A stretch of DNA of 33,401 bases from Leptolyngbya sp. FACHB-8. Lineage in GTDB: Bacteria; Cyanobacteriota; Cyanobacteriia; Elainellales; Elainellaceae. Positions within the stretch are counted from its first letter, which is position 1. Every line of letters starts with the position of its first letter. Positions 154 to 33,092 of this stretch are shown one piece after another. Below the pieces are notes generated by a model. It was not told the DNA's origin. It made no database searches and was given only the letters and a program-made list of their open reading frames with translations. Both the position numbers and the translations under genes were made by a program. The stretch spans positions 1 to 33,401 of the forward strand of contig NZ_JACJOO010000027.1 in assembly GCF_014695575.1 (NCBI RefSeq), read 5' to 3'.

Positions 154-285
154 CAGCAGTTCTCATTATGAGCTTCAAAGCCAAGATTGCGCGCCCGTTG
201 GGCGCGCAATCTTGGCTTTGAGGCCCGAAAACCGCTTGCCCTCGGCAAGCGGTTTTCGGGCCTAATTCCATACTGAGAATTGCTG
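154..285. repeat. Double-hairpin repeat with outer stem (copy A)
   Basis: Two perfect hairpins lie side by side. The first has 21-bp arms (176-196 and 200-220) and a 3-nt loop. The second has 20-bp arms (221-240 and 244-263) and a 3-nt loop. Both sit inside an imperfect outer stem (154-170 pairing with 269-285, 15 of 17). There is no T-run, so it is not a standard terminator. The architecture matches the elements at 30534-30667 and 32914-33039, but the sequence differs. It fills the space between the IS end and mutS. Confidence 0.85.
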
Positions 286-8725: not shown

Positions 8726-8806
8726 TAGACCTCCTGCATGAATCGATTTCTGAGAGCGTGAATCGTTGCGCGGTGCAGCCGCGCAACGATTCACGCAGGA
8801 GGTCTA
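8726..8806. repeat. Nested palindrome: outer 12-bp stem enclosing a 17-bp hairpin
   Basis: TAGACCTCCTGC (8726-8737) pairs perfectly with GCAGGAGGTCTA (8795-8806). Inside it, CGTGAATCGTTGCGCGG (8757-8773) pairs perfectly with 8779-8795 around a 5-nt loop. A related single-sided copy lies at 8826-8855 (TTAGACTTTCTGCATGAATG, then GTTGCGCGG), and the outer motif recurs at 5897-5909. It lies between the end of the SDR operon and the end of the convergent spkG-like gene. Confidence 0.85.
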
Positions 8807-13161: not shown

Positions 13162-13919
13162 AGGAATCCCTTAGCTGTACTGAACTATGTATGCGTTGTG
13201 TGCTTTCGCCCCAATGACAGGCTATTTAAATCCATCCCATGGGAGTGCAGGATTCATGCCGAAGGGCAAAGTTCGAAAGTGCTTGGTAGATACTTCAACC
13301 ATTCGGGAAGGCATTGTAGGCGGTAGCCTATCGCCAACGTGCTATCATCTCTAACTTCCAATTCCAGTGTTCCCTTTAGGGGGTAGATTAAACCCTGGGT
13401 GGGGTGGTTTCCTGTAGATTTTTGTGAACTTAAGTCAGAATTACAAAACTCAGAACTGCCAGAAAACATCACGAAATAGAAGTAAGAGTAACGCCATAAT
13501 CTGTGACGAATCTTCTTCTAGAATTGCCCGTTATTAGCTCAGATATAACGGGTCGTGTTGATTTTTTTACAAATATTGATTGTCTCTTAATAGGACACGG
13601 AGATACCAAGGAGTTCAGGGCGAACCGATAGGAATCCGGACGGTGCCTTGAGGGAACCTGGGTTCGGGTTAAAGGCGTTTTCGAGTGCAGCGTGTTACGC
13701 GGTACTCGAAAACACCCTTCTTGACGTGCGCCTCACGCCAAGGTTATGCGCGGGCTTGCAACTCAGAATTCACTTGGCGCACTACTCGTCCTAAGCAGCG
13801 GGAATCAACCTATGTGTAAAGATTAGGAAAGATTAGGGTGGTTCATGTCCCTCCCCTCCACAGATGGGCATGGGCAAACTACCTCCCGCCTTCCGCCCAT
13901 GAACCCATCACCCTCTGCC
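13162..13919. other. Non-coding 758-bp region with a decayed hairpin repeat
   Basis: No convincing gene lies here; the open frames lack family-like sequence or ribosome sites. The right part of 13162-13300 should carry the promoter of the V4R operon. CCCGTTAT...ATAACGGG (about 13527-13553) forms a small hairpin. A degenerate copy of the double-hairpin repeat occupies 13655-13745. Confidence 0.55.
13655..13745. repeat. Degenerate double-hairpin repeat (copy B)
   Basis: AACCTGGGTTCGGGTTAAAG, then GCGTTTTCGAGTGC, matches the left side of the element at 32914-33039. The first hairpin is kept with 15 of 17 pairs (13677-13693 with 13697-13713, loop GTT). The closing pair is T-A instead of C-G. The second hairpin is truncated (CTTGACGTG/CACGCCAAG) and the right outer arm is missing. 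It appears to be a decaying family member. Confidence 0.75.
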
Positions 13920-14698: not shown

Positions 14699-14775
14699 CG
14701 GAGCGAATGGGAGCAGTGCTCCCATTCGCTCCGTTTTATTGAGTGTGGCGTGTAATGGAAAAAACACTCAATAAA
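14699..14775. repeat. Two tandem hairpins
   Basis: The first is a perfect dyad of 17-bp arms (14699-14715 and 14717-14733) with a single central base. The second pairs TTTATTGAGTGT (14735-14746) with ACACTCAATAAA (14764-14775) over a 17-nt loop. They lie upstream of the VWA gene and downstream of the flavin oxidase. Confidence 0.85.
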
Positions 14776-14811: not shown

Positions 14812-14875
14812 CGAATGGAGCTATGAAATGGGATGTGGAACCGTAGTTCCACATCCCATTTCATAGCTCCATTCG
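14812..14875. repeat. Long perfect hairpin, 30-bp arms, 4-nt loop
   Basis: Bases 14812-14841 are the exact reverse complement of 14846-14875, separated by CGTA. The core GGGATGTGGAAC/GTTCCACATCCC is shared with the imperfect hairpin at 5918-5954. There is no T-run at either end. It lies 35 bp beyond the end of the flavin oxidase gene and could double as its terminator. Confidence 0.9.
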
Positions 14876-19339: not shown

Positions 19340-20103
19340 AAGCAACCACGGTAAGCTCAAGTAAATTAGCCGTAATAGTTGAGAGCACCCCGATCGCTAG
19401 CACGGGAATACATAGCAGGTTTTTCCTGTTGGATAAACCTATTTGCTTTCAAAAAGACCGATGGGTAGAGGCTTTAGAAGGCGATAGGCCGGCTTGCCAA
19501 CCTGACAGCTTTTGTTGGAGATGCAAGGGTGAGGCCGTTCTCTCAAGACCTATCTGCAGGTCACATTCATAGATAGGGCTTAAGAAGGCACAGTTCTTGA
19601 ACCAGATTAGAAGAGTACAAGACGTTACTCTCTTAACCTAAATTCCATGAACTCAAGAGGCAGGATTCGCGAGGTCTAGGCAACTTCTTTAGACCTATCC
19701 TTATTCCTTATGTTTTCAACCTTACAGTTTGTAATACGGGAGAGATCAGCTTGAGAGGCCACTTTATAGTGAATTTAAGAACAAGCCCCTATTTGTTAAG
19801 TGATTATCCGGTTTCTCTCTCCTCGCTCGACCTCTAGCGTTGTTTTTCTGAGCCAGGTGCCGGGGTATGAGCGGTTTAACCTATTAGAAGCATTTAACGG
19901 GGTGCATCCCAGTTTTGTTAATGTGGCGGGCGACGCCCGCCACATTAACAAAACTGGGTTTTCAATCTGCAAAAGTGGGATGTACCTCATTTAACGTCAC
20001 TGAATACATCCGCTTCCGGTCTGGAGGCACGAGAGAGGCTGTATCAGCCTGCTGGCTGGAAAACTTGCTTAGAATAACGGAAAGACCGAAATTGTAGAGG
20101 GTC
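19340..20103. other. 764-bp non-coding stretch with one nested hairpin
   Basis: No credible gene is present. Apparent frames around 19800-20000 arise from the palindrome at 19901-19986. The left part should carry the STAS promoter and the right end the promoter of the DCC-family gene. I found no recognisable RNA gene. Confidence 0.5.
19901..19986. repeat. 24-bp perfect hairpin with overlapping outer stem
   Basis: Bases 19908-19931 are the exact reverse complement of 19935-19958 around a GAC loop. An outer pairing, GGTGCATCCC (19901-19910) with GGGATGTACC (19977-19986), matches at 9 of 10 and shares the CCC with the inner left arm. The two stems are therefore alternatives rather than fully nested. 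It lies 118 bp upstream of the DCC-family gene. Confidence 0.85.
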
Positions 20104-30522: not shown

Positions 30523-30533
30523 CAATCCATTAG

Positions 30534-30667
30534 TACGTAACCTCAGTTCGGGATAGGCTGCAGTGCTTAATTTGGCGTGCGCTTTGCGCACGCCAAATTA
30601 AGCGTTTTCGAGTGCCGCGCGTTGCGCGGCACTCGAAAACGCCCTTAACCCGAACTCAGGTTACGTA
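30534..30667. repeat. Double-hairpin repeat with outer stem (copy C, intact)
   Basis: The outer arms 30534-30552 and 30649-30667 pair at 18 of 19. Inside, a hairpin with 18-bp perfect arms (30565-30582 with 30586-30603, loop TTT) is directly joined to one with 19-bp perfect arms (30602-30620 with 30624-30642, loop GTT). The whole resembles a three-armed cruciform. It is the reverse-orientation counterpart of 32914-33039. It begins 12 bp after the helicase-like gene. Confidence 0.92.
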
Positions 30668-30752
30668 GGATAGGAGCGTGGCTGACCCAGTTATCAAGCC
30701 GAAACAAGTCTGAAAATTTAGCTTGGAGAAGAGGCACATCCTCTCCATTTGC

Positions 30753-30824
30753 CCCGTTCTTCTCAGGGCAGAAGGGATGGATGGGCTGAGCGCTTATCCG
30801 TCCCTTCTGCCCTAAGAAAAGGGG
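30753..30824. promoter_or_regulatory. Long hairpin upstream of the DUF2839 gene
   Basis: AGGGCAGAAGGGA (30765-30777) pairs perfectly with TCCCTTCTGCCCT (30801-30813). Pairing extends outward imperfectly to CCCC (from 30753) and GGGG (to 30824). It ends 58 bp before ATG 30883. It may be a leader structure or an independent terminator; no T-run follows directly. Confidence 0.5.
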
Positions 30825-30882
30825 TTAGAAGACGTTATGATCAAGGCAAACTTTGGACTAACCAGTTAATCAACAGAACATT

Positions 30883-31098
30883 ATGGGTGATTCAAAACGC
30901 CGTAAAGAAACGCTGGGAGAAAAGTACGGGCAAGAACAAAATGTTCTTCCTTGGTTGCCCTTCAAAAAATCCCAAGCCGCACAGTTTGTGAAATGGAGTA
31001 CAGCAGGAGCCTGGGCTGGGATTGGTCTTTTGGTGGCCTATTGGGTGGTCATCCGCTTTTTAGGCCCCGTTTTAGGCTGGTGGCAAGTCAATCCCTAA
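30883..31098 (+). CDS. DUF2839 family membrane protein
   Basis: The 71-residue protein matches the cyanobacterial DUF2839 pattern: MGDSKRRKETLGEKYGQEQN (1-20), VLPWLPFKKSQAAQFVKW (21-38), a membrane helix (about 42-63) and a final GPVLGWWQVNP. The basic cytosolic N-terminus and single helix near the C-terminus suggest a small membrane-anchored protein of unknown role. No clear ribosome site precedes ATG 30883. A hairpin lies upstream and a 20-bp imperfect hairpin downstream. Confidence 0.92.
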   Translation: MGDSKRRKETLGEKYGQEQNVLPWLPFKKSQAAQFVKWSTAGAWAGIGLLVAYWVVIRFLGPVLGWWQVNP

Positions 31099-31153
31099 TT
31101 CTGGTTACAACCCACCTTACCGTCAGATGTACTTCATCTGGCCATGGATGAAC

Positions 31154-31199
31154 TTGAGAACCCGCAGTTACCGTAAGTTCGGCAATTGTGGGTTCTCAA
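31154..31199. terminator. Hairpin after DUF2839
   Basis: TTGAGAACCCGCAGTTACCG (31154-31173) pairs with CGGCAATTGTGGGTTCTCAA (31180-31199) at 17 of 20 around a 6-nt loop. It lies 55 bp after the stop. There is no long T-run, so the terminator role is likely but not certain. Confidence 0.65.
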
Positions 31200-32158
31200 A
31201 GCTTTAAACCTGCCCTAGAGAACTCCTACACCCATCTTGCAGAGCCTAAAATAGCGAGTTTGTTCCCACCCAAAATGACAGACTTAGCATTCTCGGTTTT
31301 GATTTTTGAATATGGGCAAAATCCACATATAGCAAACTTACTGTAAATCTATACCGATTGATCCCTCTTGATCCACCGTTGGAGTGAGGCGTGAATTGCG
31401 TCAATCATCTACTACTAAGAAGTGAATTTTAGTGAAATTCATTACTATCAGCAATTTCCATGGAATATTTTTAGGAAGGGCTAAAAATACTCAAACATGA
31501 GTAAAAGTCTTTATTAACTATTTTATTTACTCTTAAAGCAAATCAGGAACATGTTTTGATGGATACGGAATTTATTATTACTTCGTTATCTCAAATTCAT
31601 CTGCTGCTTTAGAGGCTTGGCACAGATCATCAGGAGTACTGAGTGCTCAAAAGTATTACAAACAAAGGTACTGCAAGGATTTTGTGTTAAGTTTCTGAAT
31701 TTATCCTGATTATCAGGAGATGCTTTTGAAACTTATATTTATGTAAGTAAAAGATAAGAAATATACTTCAGAAATCTTTTTTGGCACTCTAATATCCATG
31801 AGCCAAACTCATTTATTGATATGCAATGAGTTGGAATCAAGTTGACATTCTCCATTACAATTACTATTTGACGGATCATCTGAAAAATTGTTAAGACAGA
31901 TACGAACATTTCCAGAATTTTTGATTAGCCTATTGATAACATAAGGTATCAAAAAGGGAAGGCTATTCATCAGGGCGATCGCTCATTATTCGCCTCGTTG
32001 TTACCAGATTAACTCTCAAGCTTCTTGCGTTTTCGGTTGTATACCCCTAAATGGGTGATTGGCATACTCCTGCCCAGGGCGATAAGATGACCGCAAGATG
32101 GAAATATTAAAAAAACATTAAAGCGCTAGAATGGATTATTGGTGATTGGAGGCTAAGG
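31200..32158. other. AT-rich non-coding region of nearly 1 kb
   Basis: From about 31400 to 31960 the sequence is markedly AT-rich compared with the GC-balanced, HIP1-rich surroundings. It contains no long open frame on either strand. Small dyads occur at GAGTAAA/TTTACTC (31499-31532) and CCAAACTCATT/AATGAGTTGG (31803-31832). HIP1 reappears at about 31976. The right end must carry the DUF1815 promoter. No RNA gene was recognised. Confidence 0.5.
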
Positions 32159-32518
32159 ATGTTTGTAAGACTTGCAAAGCAACACCAGCAGTTAGTACAG
32201 GACCTCGTCATGAATCTTCAAGCACTGGCAACAGTGCTGGAGCGTCAGGGCTATCTCGCTTCCTGCTATACCTGCGGTGGTCAGATGAACAGCGCTTCTT
32301 TTATGGTCAGTCTGGGAGAGAATCATCTGATTCGTTTCCTAGTGTCTGATTATGGAATTACCTGGACTGAGATGCGGGACGATCGCGAACTCATGAAACT
32401 AGAGGGCGCAGAAGCCATCAGCCAACTTCAGGAGCTGGCCAACTTAGTGAAGTACCAGATTAAGCCATCTGAACAGTCGCTCGTCCTGGCGGGTTCAGCG
32501 TCTGACCTGGTTGGGTAG
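32159..32518 (+). CDS. DUF1815 family protein
   Basis: The 119-residue soluble protein matches the cyanobacterial DUF1815 family closely: MFVRLAKQHQQLVQDLVMNL (1-20), QALATVLERQGYLASCYTCG (21-40), GQMNSASFMVSLGENHLIRF (41-60), VSDYGITWTEMRDDRELMKL (62-81), then an EGAEAISQLQELANLVKYQ helix. Members are conserved throughout cyanobacteria without assigned function; the high conservation suggests a core role. GGAGG stands 8 bases before ATG 32159, a strong ribosome site. The gene is isolated by long non-coding regions on both sides. Confidence 0.93.
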   Translation: MFVRLAKQHQQLVQDLVMNLQALATVLERQGYLASCYTCGGQMNSASFMVSLGENHLIRFLVSDYGITWTEMRDDRELMKLEGAEAISQLQELANLVKYQIKPSEQSLVLAGSASDLVG

Positions 32519-32823
32519 ATAAGTGTTTCTTGCGCGGCCCCAGCGTGAGGAATTGACATAAGTTGAGTAGTTGACTTCTAATCTAACTGTGAAACCGAGG
32601 TTGCACTGGGTTAACATTTTGATGCGCTACTAGTTAAAATTTGTGGCCTGTGCCCTCGTGAGGGGATCATTTACCCCACAAAATCCCCTCCTCAAAAGTT
32701 AGACTGCACCCAAACGAGTTGGATATTAGCCCAGAACTGGTTGTTAGGTTATACGAGTCTTGCTTAAAGATGCGCGGCTCAAAATCAACGAGAAGGCCCG
32801 CGATAAAAGTATTACATCTACCA

Positions 32824-32857
32824 AACAGTAGGGATTAGAATTCTAATCCCTACTGTT
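32824..32857. repeat. Perfect 34-bp palindrome without loop
   Basis: The half-site AACAGTAGGGATTAGAA (32824-32840) is followed immediately by its exact reverse complement (32841-32857), centred on GAATTC. No spacer separates the halves. It lies about 305 bp after the DUF1815 stop. Confidence 0.9.
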
Positions 32858-32913
32858 GTCGTATAGAAAAGGGCGATCGATTCTCAGGTGAGCCAAAGTA
32901 TCTTTGTTATAAA

Positions 32914-33039
32914 TAACCTGAGTTTGGGTTAAGGGTGTTTTCGAGTGCCGCGCGTTGCGCGGCACTCGAAAACGCTCATTTTGGCGTGCGCAAAGCGCAC
33001 GCCAAAATGAGCACTTCAGCTTATCCCGAACTGAGGTTA
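32914..33039. repeat. Double-hairpin repeat with outer stem (copy D, intact)
   Basis: The outer arms 32914-32928 and 33025-33039 pair at 13 of 15. The first hairpin has 17-bp perfect arms (32937-32953 with 32957-32973, loop GTT). The second has 18-bp perfect arms (32974-32991 with 32995-33012, loop AAA). It is close to the reverse complement of 30534-30667 throughout. Differences occur as paired changes on both arms. Confidence 0.92.
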
Positions 33040-33092
33040 AATAAACTCGCATGAAAGAAGCTTGTTATCTGCTAGGGCGATGTTCAAGTTTA

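Follow-up and report, generated by a model that had tools for sequence, protein, structure and literature searches.

The stretch of DNA analysed here (the window) comprises 33,401 nucleotides of Leptolyngbya sp. FACHB-8 (contig NZ_JACJOO010000027.1, positions 1 to 33,401). It carries two intact copies of an element in which two perfect hairpins stand in tandem. The question raised by the locus is what keeps such hairpins perfect while their arms change and a loop is turned around. The features concerned are listed below.

30540-30661, plus strand: MITE copy 1 (122 nt, IS982-type), 98% identical over 122 positions to the nearest other genome copy
30534-30539: left target-site duplication of copy 1, TACGTA
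30662-30667: right target-site duplication of copy 1, TACGTA
30540-30557, plus strand: left terminal inverted repeat of copy 1, ACCTCAGTTCGGGATAGG (family consensus ACCTCAGTTCGGGATAAG), with similar ends on IS982 elements
30644-30661, plus strand: right terminal inverted repeat of copy 1
30565-30603, plus strand: hairpin 1 of copy 1 (18-3-18), loop TTT at 30583-30585
30604-30640, plus strand: hairpin 2 of copy 1 (17-3-17), loop GTT (30621-30623), inverted with respect to copy 2
32916-33037, minus strand: MITE copy 2 (122 nt)
32910-32915: target-site duplication of copy 2, TAAATA, low-coordinate side
33038-33043: target-site duplication of copy 2, TAAATA, high-coordinate side
32974-33012, minus strand: hairpin 1 of copy 2, minus-strand loop TTT
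32937-32973, minus strand: hairpin 2 of copy 2, minus-strand loop AAC
about 13656-13745, minus strand: decayed copy with a single terminal repeat, hairpin 2 (T-A beside the loop) and a truncated hairpin 1
154-285, minus strand: another MITE with two hairpins, unrelated to the first (132 nt; ends CAGCAATTCTCA; target duplication of 9 bp)

Identity and dispersal of the element

Direct reading of the window recovers both intact copies as described in the first-pass annotation, although the span given there for copy 1 (30534-30667) includes both 6-bp TACGTA duplications in addition to the element proper. When the copies are read in the same orientation, two positions of hairpin 1 differ between them, each matched on the opposite arm, and the inversion of the hairpin 2 loop is real. 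The decayed copy lacks its far end and shows, as had been noted, T-A in place of C-G next to the loop of hairpin 2. The region 30525-30680 folds with z = -13.30 as DNA and z = -14.61 as RNA, 0 of 200 shuffles being equally good in either case.

The element has no coding capacity and is bounded by 18-bp terminal inverted repeats, which correspond to the "outer stem" of the first-pass annotation. The terminal-repeat pattern yielded 537 matches in the 6.9-Mb genome (G000) and none with a reversed control pattern; the copy number in this cyanobacterium exceeds 100. Exact target duplications of 6-8 bp flank 60 of 80 copies, or 68 if one mismatch is allowed, whereas only 29 of 988 swapped-flank control pairs show duplications of even 5 bp or more. 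The idea of a mobile family, for which the presence of further copies had been named beforehand as the test, is borne out by these end matches and duplications. One clean uninterrupted target site was found, the insertion at C7:167962 corresponding to C42:72700-72783 with a single TACTTA. For the window copies, the matched flanks in another genome of the genus (G001) are only 71-81% identical, with a 320-bp gap between them. When ends were paired across G000, 33 of 193 were left unpaired. Two spans of 2526 and 1260 bp between paired ends were considered as autonomous copies and rejected, since they hold ordinary ORFs between ends of separate elements; by eye, one ORF is helicase-like and one encodes a NUDIX-type protein. 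Judged by its sequence features (ends, target duplications and uninterrupted target), the element is a MITE. No element with exact ends was present in the viral contigs searched, and the element was not described among the matches listed in a literature search that covered mainly open-access papers. A paper by Elhai from 2008 is said to treat small mobile repeats of cyanobacteria.

Four genomes (G026, G035, G001 and G048) contain IS982 elements of 963-967 bp whose ends are similar to those of the MITE, and the ends in G016 are also similar, with more changes. The transposase of the G026 element matches NF033520 (E 1.4e-74) and PF13612 (E 5.1e-73). The ends ACCT/ACGT and the 6-8 bp duplications agree with the features of the IS982 family, whose ends start with 5'-AC and which produces direct repeats of a few bp (PMC7335449). 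The draft assembly of G000 gave no IS982 transposase match at E 1e-5 and one weak family match at 8.4e-5; this bears on present mobility alone and not on the ends. The MITE was probably moved by a borrowed IS982-type transposase.

REP/REPIN repeats are linked to RAYT transposases and are not known to produce a target duplication. They are, like the present element, palindromic and numerous (PMC3733652), and the element shares with them an intergenic placement. That it is such a repeat, moved by a RAYT (Y1) transposase as the first-pass annotation had proposed to check, is nevertheless hardly credible. A search for Y1 transposases (PF01797), positive in 5 of 14 control genomes, gave none in the G000 assembly, and the copies carry target duplications; the RAYT link is therefore unsupported. 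In addition, the ends are of a different kind, being terminal inverted repeats similar to those of IS982 elements.

Pairing in the hairpin arms and at the ends

Covariation was counted in 135 copies from three genera, forming four families (subfamilies A and B and the copies of genomes G016 and G013). Eight copies outside subfamilies A and B were left out, as were those not 122 nt in length (7 in G000, 2 in G016, 3 in G013). For G016 and G013 the count draws mainly on the 30 top-scoring loci of each genome, which favours intact copies. In the hairpin arms, 44 double cells (26 types) are matched, 2 doubles are mismatched and 97 changes are single; the corresponding counts for the terminal repeats are 0, 2 and 117 (Fisher, 9e-14 for cells and 3e-7 for types), and matched change is absent from the repeats within each of the four families. 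Under independent arms, at most 2.2 matched cells are expected in subfamily A, 0.13 in G016 and 3.0 in G013, against 22, 4 and 18 observed. Arm differences are compensated far above chance, as the first-pass annotation had supposed. Because the arms show matched changes and the terminal repeats none, the two hairpins are kept paired and the outer stem is not; the proposed upkeep of structure thus holds for the hairpins but not for the whole three-armed shape.

That the outer stem belongs to a selected fold was rejected on its columns as well. Among 40 aligned sequences, hand-picked from 143 for distinct arms, two columns of the terminal repeat are mostly unpaired (in 31 and 39 copies, the latter being column 14), and what had been taken for a maintained stem is a terminal inverted repeat. 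Column 3/120 co-varies between genera, with C-G in 21 and G-C in 10 of the 40.

The families differ in their changes. Subfamily B has no matched double change and 7 singles, although its per-site end divergence is the same as that of subfamily A (0.0250 and 0.0258). G016, the least diverged family, has four double changes, each in 1 of 31 copies, and two singles. Its copy L118 holds two of the four doubles, has hairpin 2 arms identical to those of G013, and may represent an old lineage. Double-change types are common to several copies in 5 of 10 cases in subfamily A and 5 of 12 in G013. Transitions make up 82 of the 97 singles in the arms and 68 of the 117 at the ends (34 of 35 and 32 of 47 in subfamily A), as if bad mismatches were purged from the arms.

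One source of paired arms would be selection on an RNA, the element being transcribed and acting in mRNA stability, as a 3' end or as a regulator. Placement and fold agree with this. By crude gene calls (ORFs of at least 90 aa, codon score), none of 63 placed copies lies inside a called ORF; convergent gaps are enriched (19 copies against about 11 expected by bases) and divergent gaps depleted (9 against about 18); 25 of 35 copies between tandem genes share one orientation (25:10); and the RNA fold is very stable. Intergenic placement, however, also follows from selection against gene damage. Among one-sided arm changes of subfamily A, read in element orientation, G-T (19) and A-C (15) are about equal, so that no RNA-strand bias is seen, and the loops have three bases where RNA hairpins prefer tetraloops. 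On these two grounds RNA selection, one of the two upkeep mechanisms offered in the first-pass annotation, has little support, and we regard it as improbable. Rfam covariance models gave no match in the window above the gathering score, and no T run of an intrinsic terminator follows the hairpins on either strand of the window copies.

Loop orientation and the origin of matched arms

Loop orientation is near 50:50 in subfamily A, and both states occur also in two other genera and in the second MITE. Eleven copies are identical outside the loops; ten of these span all four orientation combinations (3, 3, 2 and 2) and one carries GTC. The state of loop 1 is not linked to relatedness (same state 0.478, a value reached or exceeded in 252 of 300 shuffles). 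Intermediates are scarce, loop 1 being TAT in 4 of 57 copies and loop 2 being AAT in one and ATT in one. Since G000 is a draft in 95 contigs, near-identical 122-bp repeats might be unphasable by short reads, and the assembly may mix loop states between such copies. Mis-phasing could shuffle states but not create them, and no loop is more than 46 bases from an element end; with both states also found in other genera and another family, it is very improbable that the flips are an artefact.

The reading towards which we lean is that of an IS982-type MITE in which template switching, possibly tied to transposition, keeps the hairpins perfect and inverts their tips. The transposase of an IS982-type insertion sequence would recognise the 18-bp ends and insert the element into TA-rich target sequence (about TANNTA), with a duplication of 6-8 bp. 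During replication or transposition the strands would separate at the hairpins, and the polymerase may change template, from one arm to the other or from one sister strand to the other. Such a switch would copy a mutation of one arm to the other or erase it, and a switch spanning the tip would leave the loop inverted. Template switching would thereby keep the arms matched and let the tips drift to random orientation, with no need for selection on the function of each copy. The two ends would decay independently, being too distant for either to serve as template for the other. Of the two mechanisms offered at first, the one in which replication copies or inverts hairpin arms is the better. Template switching has already been described as a mechanism for loop inversion with restored pairing (PMC8794818).

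The shorter elements speak in part for a role of proximity. In a 113-bp single-hairpin element (L253) the ends pair perfectly. Of five elements of 77-81 bp, the two that contain hairpin 2 are paired at end column 14, although they still mismatch at column 5; the other three show no pairing at column 14.

Subfamily B, which hardly flips and lacks matched double changes, has no explanation in the template-switching reading. Of its 15 copies, 13 have GAC in loop 1, one GTT, one GAT and none GTC; in loop 2, 12 have GAA and 3 TTC. As this contradicts a steady rate in place, flipping would have to depend on movement or vary from hairpin to hairpin.

Template switching alone also leaves the shared architecture unexplained. 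Two other genera have the identical 18-3-18/17-3-17 layout with different arm sequences, and the second MITE of the window resembles the 122-nt MITE in layout and behaviour. To account for this, descent or shape selection may have to be invoked. The main rival is accordingly selection on DNA shape, in which transposition needs the hairpins or cruciforms, for example to join the ends, so that only copies with perfect hairpins spread and compensation arises in two steps in source copies. We consider it unlikely, though a serious contender. Beyond the layout shared by three genera and two unrelated families, it accounts for the loop type, since a triloop with a C-G closing pair is a stable type of DNA hairpin: of 535 perfect hairpins, 315 carry a loop of three bases, and among these 306 are closed by C-G and 142 have the loop GAA/TTC. 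Loops of this DNA type agree equally with the template-switching reading. The near absence of transversions among arm singles of subfamily A, the doubles partly common to several copies, and the two doubles in the old-looking L118 also agree with it. Loop inversion is left unexplained, and 13 of 20 IS982-type MITEs that measure 98-203 bp and lack two perfect hairpins are flanked by exact duplications of at least 6 bp, although those of G001 nonetheless fold strongly. Among three hairpin-less copies of 46 bp, one is flanked by an exact duplication of 8 bp and another by one of 7 bp with a single mismatch; loss of the hairpins after insertion may explain these two cases. The 46-bp copy in L115 has no duplication.

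A bolder form of the template-switching reading, put forward tentatively, is that switching at triloop hairpins, perhaps triggered by transposition, is frequent enough in this lineage to make nearly all of the covariation in place of selection. The layout with two hairpins would then be a mutational attractor at which unrelated MITEs arrived independently of one another. In that case covariation by itself would not speak for a functional RNA, and each loop would be a record of switching events.

Comparison with known elements

Nezha is an IS630-type MITE, and we know of no bacterial MITE with tandem perfect triloop hairpins and flipping loops. Double-hairpin elements (DHEs) are reportedly the subject of a paper by Paquin from 2000; two adjacent stable hairpins and dispersed copies are features that the 122-nt MITE has in common with them. 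The DHEs of fungal mitochondria are likewise dispersed, potentially mobile and mostly intergenic, but they are organellar (PMC10085805), whereas the MITE is bounded by terminal repeats and target duplications and has a candidate transposase family. Nezha, RUP, NEMIS, ERIC and bcr1 are likewise short, gene-less and foldable, with terminal repeats (PMC3733652); Nezha and other bacterial MITEs depend on transposase families other than that of the present MITE. An IS982-derived MITE of Cardinium (related to ISCca4, about 240 bp) is also non-autonomous with IS982-family ends, and its upkeep was ascribed to the parental IS982 element (PMC9769881). It differs in host and size, and the main text of that paper contains neither "hairpin" nor "secondary structure". 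The present finding points to IS982-dependent MITEs across several cyanobacterial genera.

The origin of compensatory changes in stems is an open question, and a 2022 study of template switching rated its own evidence for stem maintenance as circumstantial (PMC8794818). One-step compensation and loop inversion were predicted there for RNA hairpins, and both patterns are seen in the MITE. The MITE gives a natural test of hairpin perfection from DNA copying errors against selection, and a warning that mutation can drive covariation statistics. Rates should be measurable, since there are many insertions, a built-in control in the unmatched ends, matched arm changes and near-50:50 loops in one subfamily. 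Loop inversion in rRNA is rare (69 alone, 6 with a compensatory change; PMC8794818) in comparison with the near-even state of subfamily A. Small hairpin-loop inversions in chloroplast DNA likewise show both loop orientations between perfect arms, with changes both ways on the tree (PMC6824564). These are single loci, whereas the MITE offers many mobile copies together with co-changes of the arms.

Layout and abundance of the element

The element is 122 nt long and, read in one orientation, consists of an 18-bp end (the ends being terminal inverted repeats), 7 nt, a hairpin of 18-3-18, a hairpin of 17-3-17, 3 nt and a second 18-bp end. The two intact copies and the decayed copy claimed in the first-pass annotation are present in the window.

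Copies of the element in the window
30540-30661 (+): intact copy, 122 nt, flanked by direct 6-bp repeats (TACGTA)
32916-33037 (-): intact copy, 122 nt, flanked by direct 6-bp repeats (TAAATA)
about 13656-13745: decayed copy

The window is one complete 33.4-kb contig of the 6.93-Mb draft genome (G000), a cyanobacterium to judge by its family relatives, which include Kaiparowitsia implicata. The search for further copies in this genome gave 537 end-sequence matches (≤ 2 mismatches) vs 0 for the reversed control. With 40 of the 372 candidates from the first look scored, at least 43 BLAST matches spanned most of the element at 73-100% identity. A search for exact end pairs separated by 70-100 bases hit 113 places in G000 and 66 in Kaiparowitsia implicata (G016); of the remaining 386 genomes searched in the class, six had 1-2. 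Synechococcales cyanobacterium M55_K2018_004 (G013), whose end letters differ, scores 0 in this search. The detailed G000 sample comprised eight whole contigs and the window (1,566,271 bp); of its 193 ends, strict pairing left 33 without a partner and joined the rest into 80 pairs, 61 of which span exactly 122 bp. When the end criterion was relaxed and 15 loci on other contigs were added, the set grew to 87 elements, 80 of them 122 nt long.

Insertion sites and relation to IS982

The first family is a transposon and carries a mobility signature. Exact direct repeats of 6-8 bp surround 60 of 80 G000 copies (68 with one mismatch allowed), whereas the swapped-flank control reached at least 5 bp in 29 of 988 cases. 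Target sites resemble TANNTA. Repeats that are exact over at least 6 bp flank 25 of 31 copies in G016 and 16 of 32 in G013. The copy at C7:167962 is inserted within another dispersed repeat, the uninterrupted form of which has a single TACTTA; an example of the empty site (C42:72700-72783) is 93% identical across 84 bases to the joined flanks. None of the 63 copies placed in 1.57 Mb of G000 interrupts a called ORF; one further copy lies at a contig edge. Selection on the hairpins as RNA is weakly hinted at by placement: among the 35 copies located between tandem genes, 25 share one orientation relative to transcription, and convergent gaps hold 19 copies vs about 11 expected by bases.

Ends similar to those of the element bound insertion sequences of 963-967 bp in relatives G026, G035, G001 and G048, and further ones of 928-1010 bp in G026, G016, G020 and G056. 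They encode an IS982 transposase (NF033520, E 1.4e-74; PF13612, E 5.1e-73). Among nine end-flanked insertion sequences, exact 6-7-bp duplications flank two (L132, TAGCTA; L134, AATACTA), and the other seven lack them. The features given for the IS982 family in PMC7335449 include 5'-AC ends and short direct repeats, which the element matches. Judged by sequence, the ends are common to the element and the IS982 insertion sequences; the first family is an IS982-family MITE, a known class, and IS982 transposase probably acts on it. In the G000 draft assembly this transposase gave a weak match only (8.4e-5), and none at 1e-5 with the G026 query. The annotation had also proposed a REP-associated Y1 (RAYT-like) transposase as a check; it was looked for in G000 and not found. 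End matches were present in 26 of 60 genomes (three or more in 14) and IS982 transposase above the cut-off in 8. Single end hits mean little, since the reversed-end control yields 1-2 hits in 10 of the 60.

IS982-type MITEs with other interiors were found in G001 (162/173 bp), G037 (98-101 bp) and G047 (174-203 bp), with exact duplications in 13 of 20. Two 122-nt IS982-type elements of other genera (L250, L252) are without perfect hairpins and are possibly relatives that lost or never acquired them.

Arm covariation and loop inversion

Every copy was compared with its family consensus at paired positions, the ends serving as internal control for the hairpin arms.

Changes at paired positions within families
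Subfamily A, 57 copies: arms, 35 singles alongside 22 matched double cells (10 types), none mismatched; ends, 47 singles and no doubles
Subfamily B, 15 copies: arms, 0 matched, 7 singles; ends, 0 matched, 12 singles
G016, 31 copies: arms, 4 matched, 2 singles; ends, 0 matched, 3 singles
G013, 32 copies: arms, 53 singles alongside 18 matched doubles (12 types) and 2 mismatched ones; ends, 55 singles and 2 mismatched doubles, none matched

The compensatory changes first noticed in the window recur in the arms across the families: by cell, 44 are matched and 97 single, vs 0 and 117 in the ends (Fisher 9e-14). The count by type (26 and 74 vs 0 and 70, Fisher 3e-7) is safer because copies share ancestry. 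The G016 double changes occur in one copy each, but two of them are in locus L118, which may be an older lineage because its hairpin-2 arms equal those of G013. Transitions account for 82 of 97 arm singles (40 of 53 in G013 alone) vs 68 of 117 end singles.

Across genera (40 sequences hand-picked from 143), 98.3% and 99.3% of cells in the two hairpins are paired and 23 of 35 pairs are altered on both sides, vs 84% and 1 of 18 pairs in the ends. None of 500 shuffles of the whole structure matched the observed value on any of five measures, and every slid version was lower. Arms in G016 and G013 are far from those of G000; the layout is identical. End columns 5/118 and 14/109 lack pairing in 31 and 39 of the 40 sequences. 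Column 14 has A at one end and T at the other (each read inward), also on several IS982 elements, and this difference perhaps reflects left/right end identity. At column 5 the C-bearing and G-bearing ends swap by lineage.

The suspected loop inversion is likewise present. Subfamily A has AAC 26 and GTT 25 (others 6) in loop 2, and AAA 29, TTT 20, TAT 4, TTC 2, GAA 1 and TCT 1 in loop 1. The four main combinations occur in 16, 10, 9 and 10 copies (Fisher 0.38); among eleven copies that are identical apart from the loops, ten cover all four and one carries GTC. Loop 1 state showed no association with relatedness: the same-state value was 0.478, a level equalled or exceeded in 252 of 300 shuffles. 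The two loops are GAC 27 : GTC 2 (others 2) and GTC 23 : GAC 7 (other 1) in G016, and GAC 19 : GTC 8 (others 5) and CCG 17 : CGG 13 (others 2) in G013. Subfamily B has GAC 13 and no GTC in loop 1 (others 2); its loop 2 is GAA 12 : TTC 3. A simple clock of flipping is disfavoured, since subfamily B rarely flips although its ends have diverged as far as those of subfamily A. Flipping and arm matching may be coupled to movement of the element.

Template switching between strands, with one arm copied onto the other and the loop inverted, is treated in PMC8794818, where rRNA loop inversions are rare and the evidence for stem maintenance is self-described as circumstantial. In the element, such switching would copy one hairpin arm onto its partner, keeping the arms matched, and would also invert the loop. 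It accounts for matched arms, loop flips and unmatched distant ends, and it predicts that single-hairpin elements should pair through their ends. Such end pairing is full in a 113-bp perfect palindrome of a distant cyanobacterium (G173, L253:1496-1608), a single hairpin with IS982-type ends. It is partial in two of five 77-81-bp G000 elements, the two with hairpin 2 (C95:84271, C53:122156), which pair at column 14 and not at column 5; the other three do not. Template switching is the probable cause of arm matching and flips. Alone, it gives no account of the cross-genus constancy of layout, the quiet subfamily B or the transition excess among arm singles. The main alternative is selection on DNA shape during transposition. 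Against such selection stand 46-bp copies with two ends only, although these may have lost both hairpins after insertion.

Hairpin-less 46-bp forms
C53:11946 (G000): no duplication
C55:30357 (G000): exact 8-bp duplication
C72:76048 (G000): 7-bp duplication with one mismatch
L115:1375-1420 (another genus): no duplication

Through its hairpin behaviour the element brings an open question, how compensatory changes in stems arise, within reach of a test.

A second family and the hairpin load of the genome

An unrelated double-hairpin MITE family is also represented in the window, together with further perfect hairpins.

Other hairpin features of the window
154-285: second-family element, 132 nt, ends CAGCAATTCTCA, hairpins 18-3-18 and 23-3-23
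19908-19958: perfect hairpin, cluster of 15 in the sampled 1.57 Mb
8756-8796: perfect hairpin, cluster of 8 in the same sample
14812-14875: perfect hairpin
14699-14733: perfect hairpin
32824-32857: perfect hairpin

The second family has an exact 9-bp duplication in 24 of 31 rows. In the 22 copies measured, the arms carry 30 singles alongside 69 matched double cells (20 types) and 2 mismatched doubles, vs 8 singles and no matched doubles in the ends; in the 17 main-subfamily copies the arms carry 20 singles, 23 matched (9 types) and 1 mismatched, vs 7 singles and no matched doubles in the ends. Triloops occur in both orientations (TTC 6 : GAA 6; TTT 5 : AAA 2; GTA 8 : TAC 4). G000 contains 75 copies with exact ends, and 5 of the 35 other family genomes contain 1-3. 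Second-family elements are inserted within first-family copies at C55:36360 and C61:227736.

Hairpins with perfect arms of at least 15 number 535 in 1.57 Mb of G000 (34 per 100 kb) vs 0 in a mononucleotide-shuffled control of 536 kb. Small samples gave 12 in 60 kb (G016) and 3 in 36 kb (G013), and none in either 45 kb of G009 or 68 kb from other bacteria. G000 seems to tolerate palindromes well. Loops of 3 bases are found in 315 of the 535, with a C-G closing pair in 306 of these and GAA/TTC in 142. The triloop C(GAA)G is very stable in DNA, which favours hairpins formed at the DNA level. Many single-hairpin repeat clusters were also seen in the sampled 1.57 Mb.
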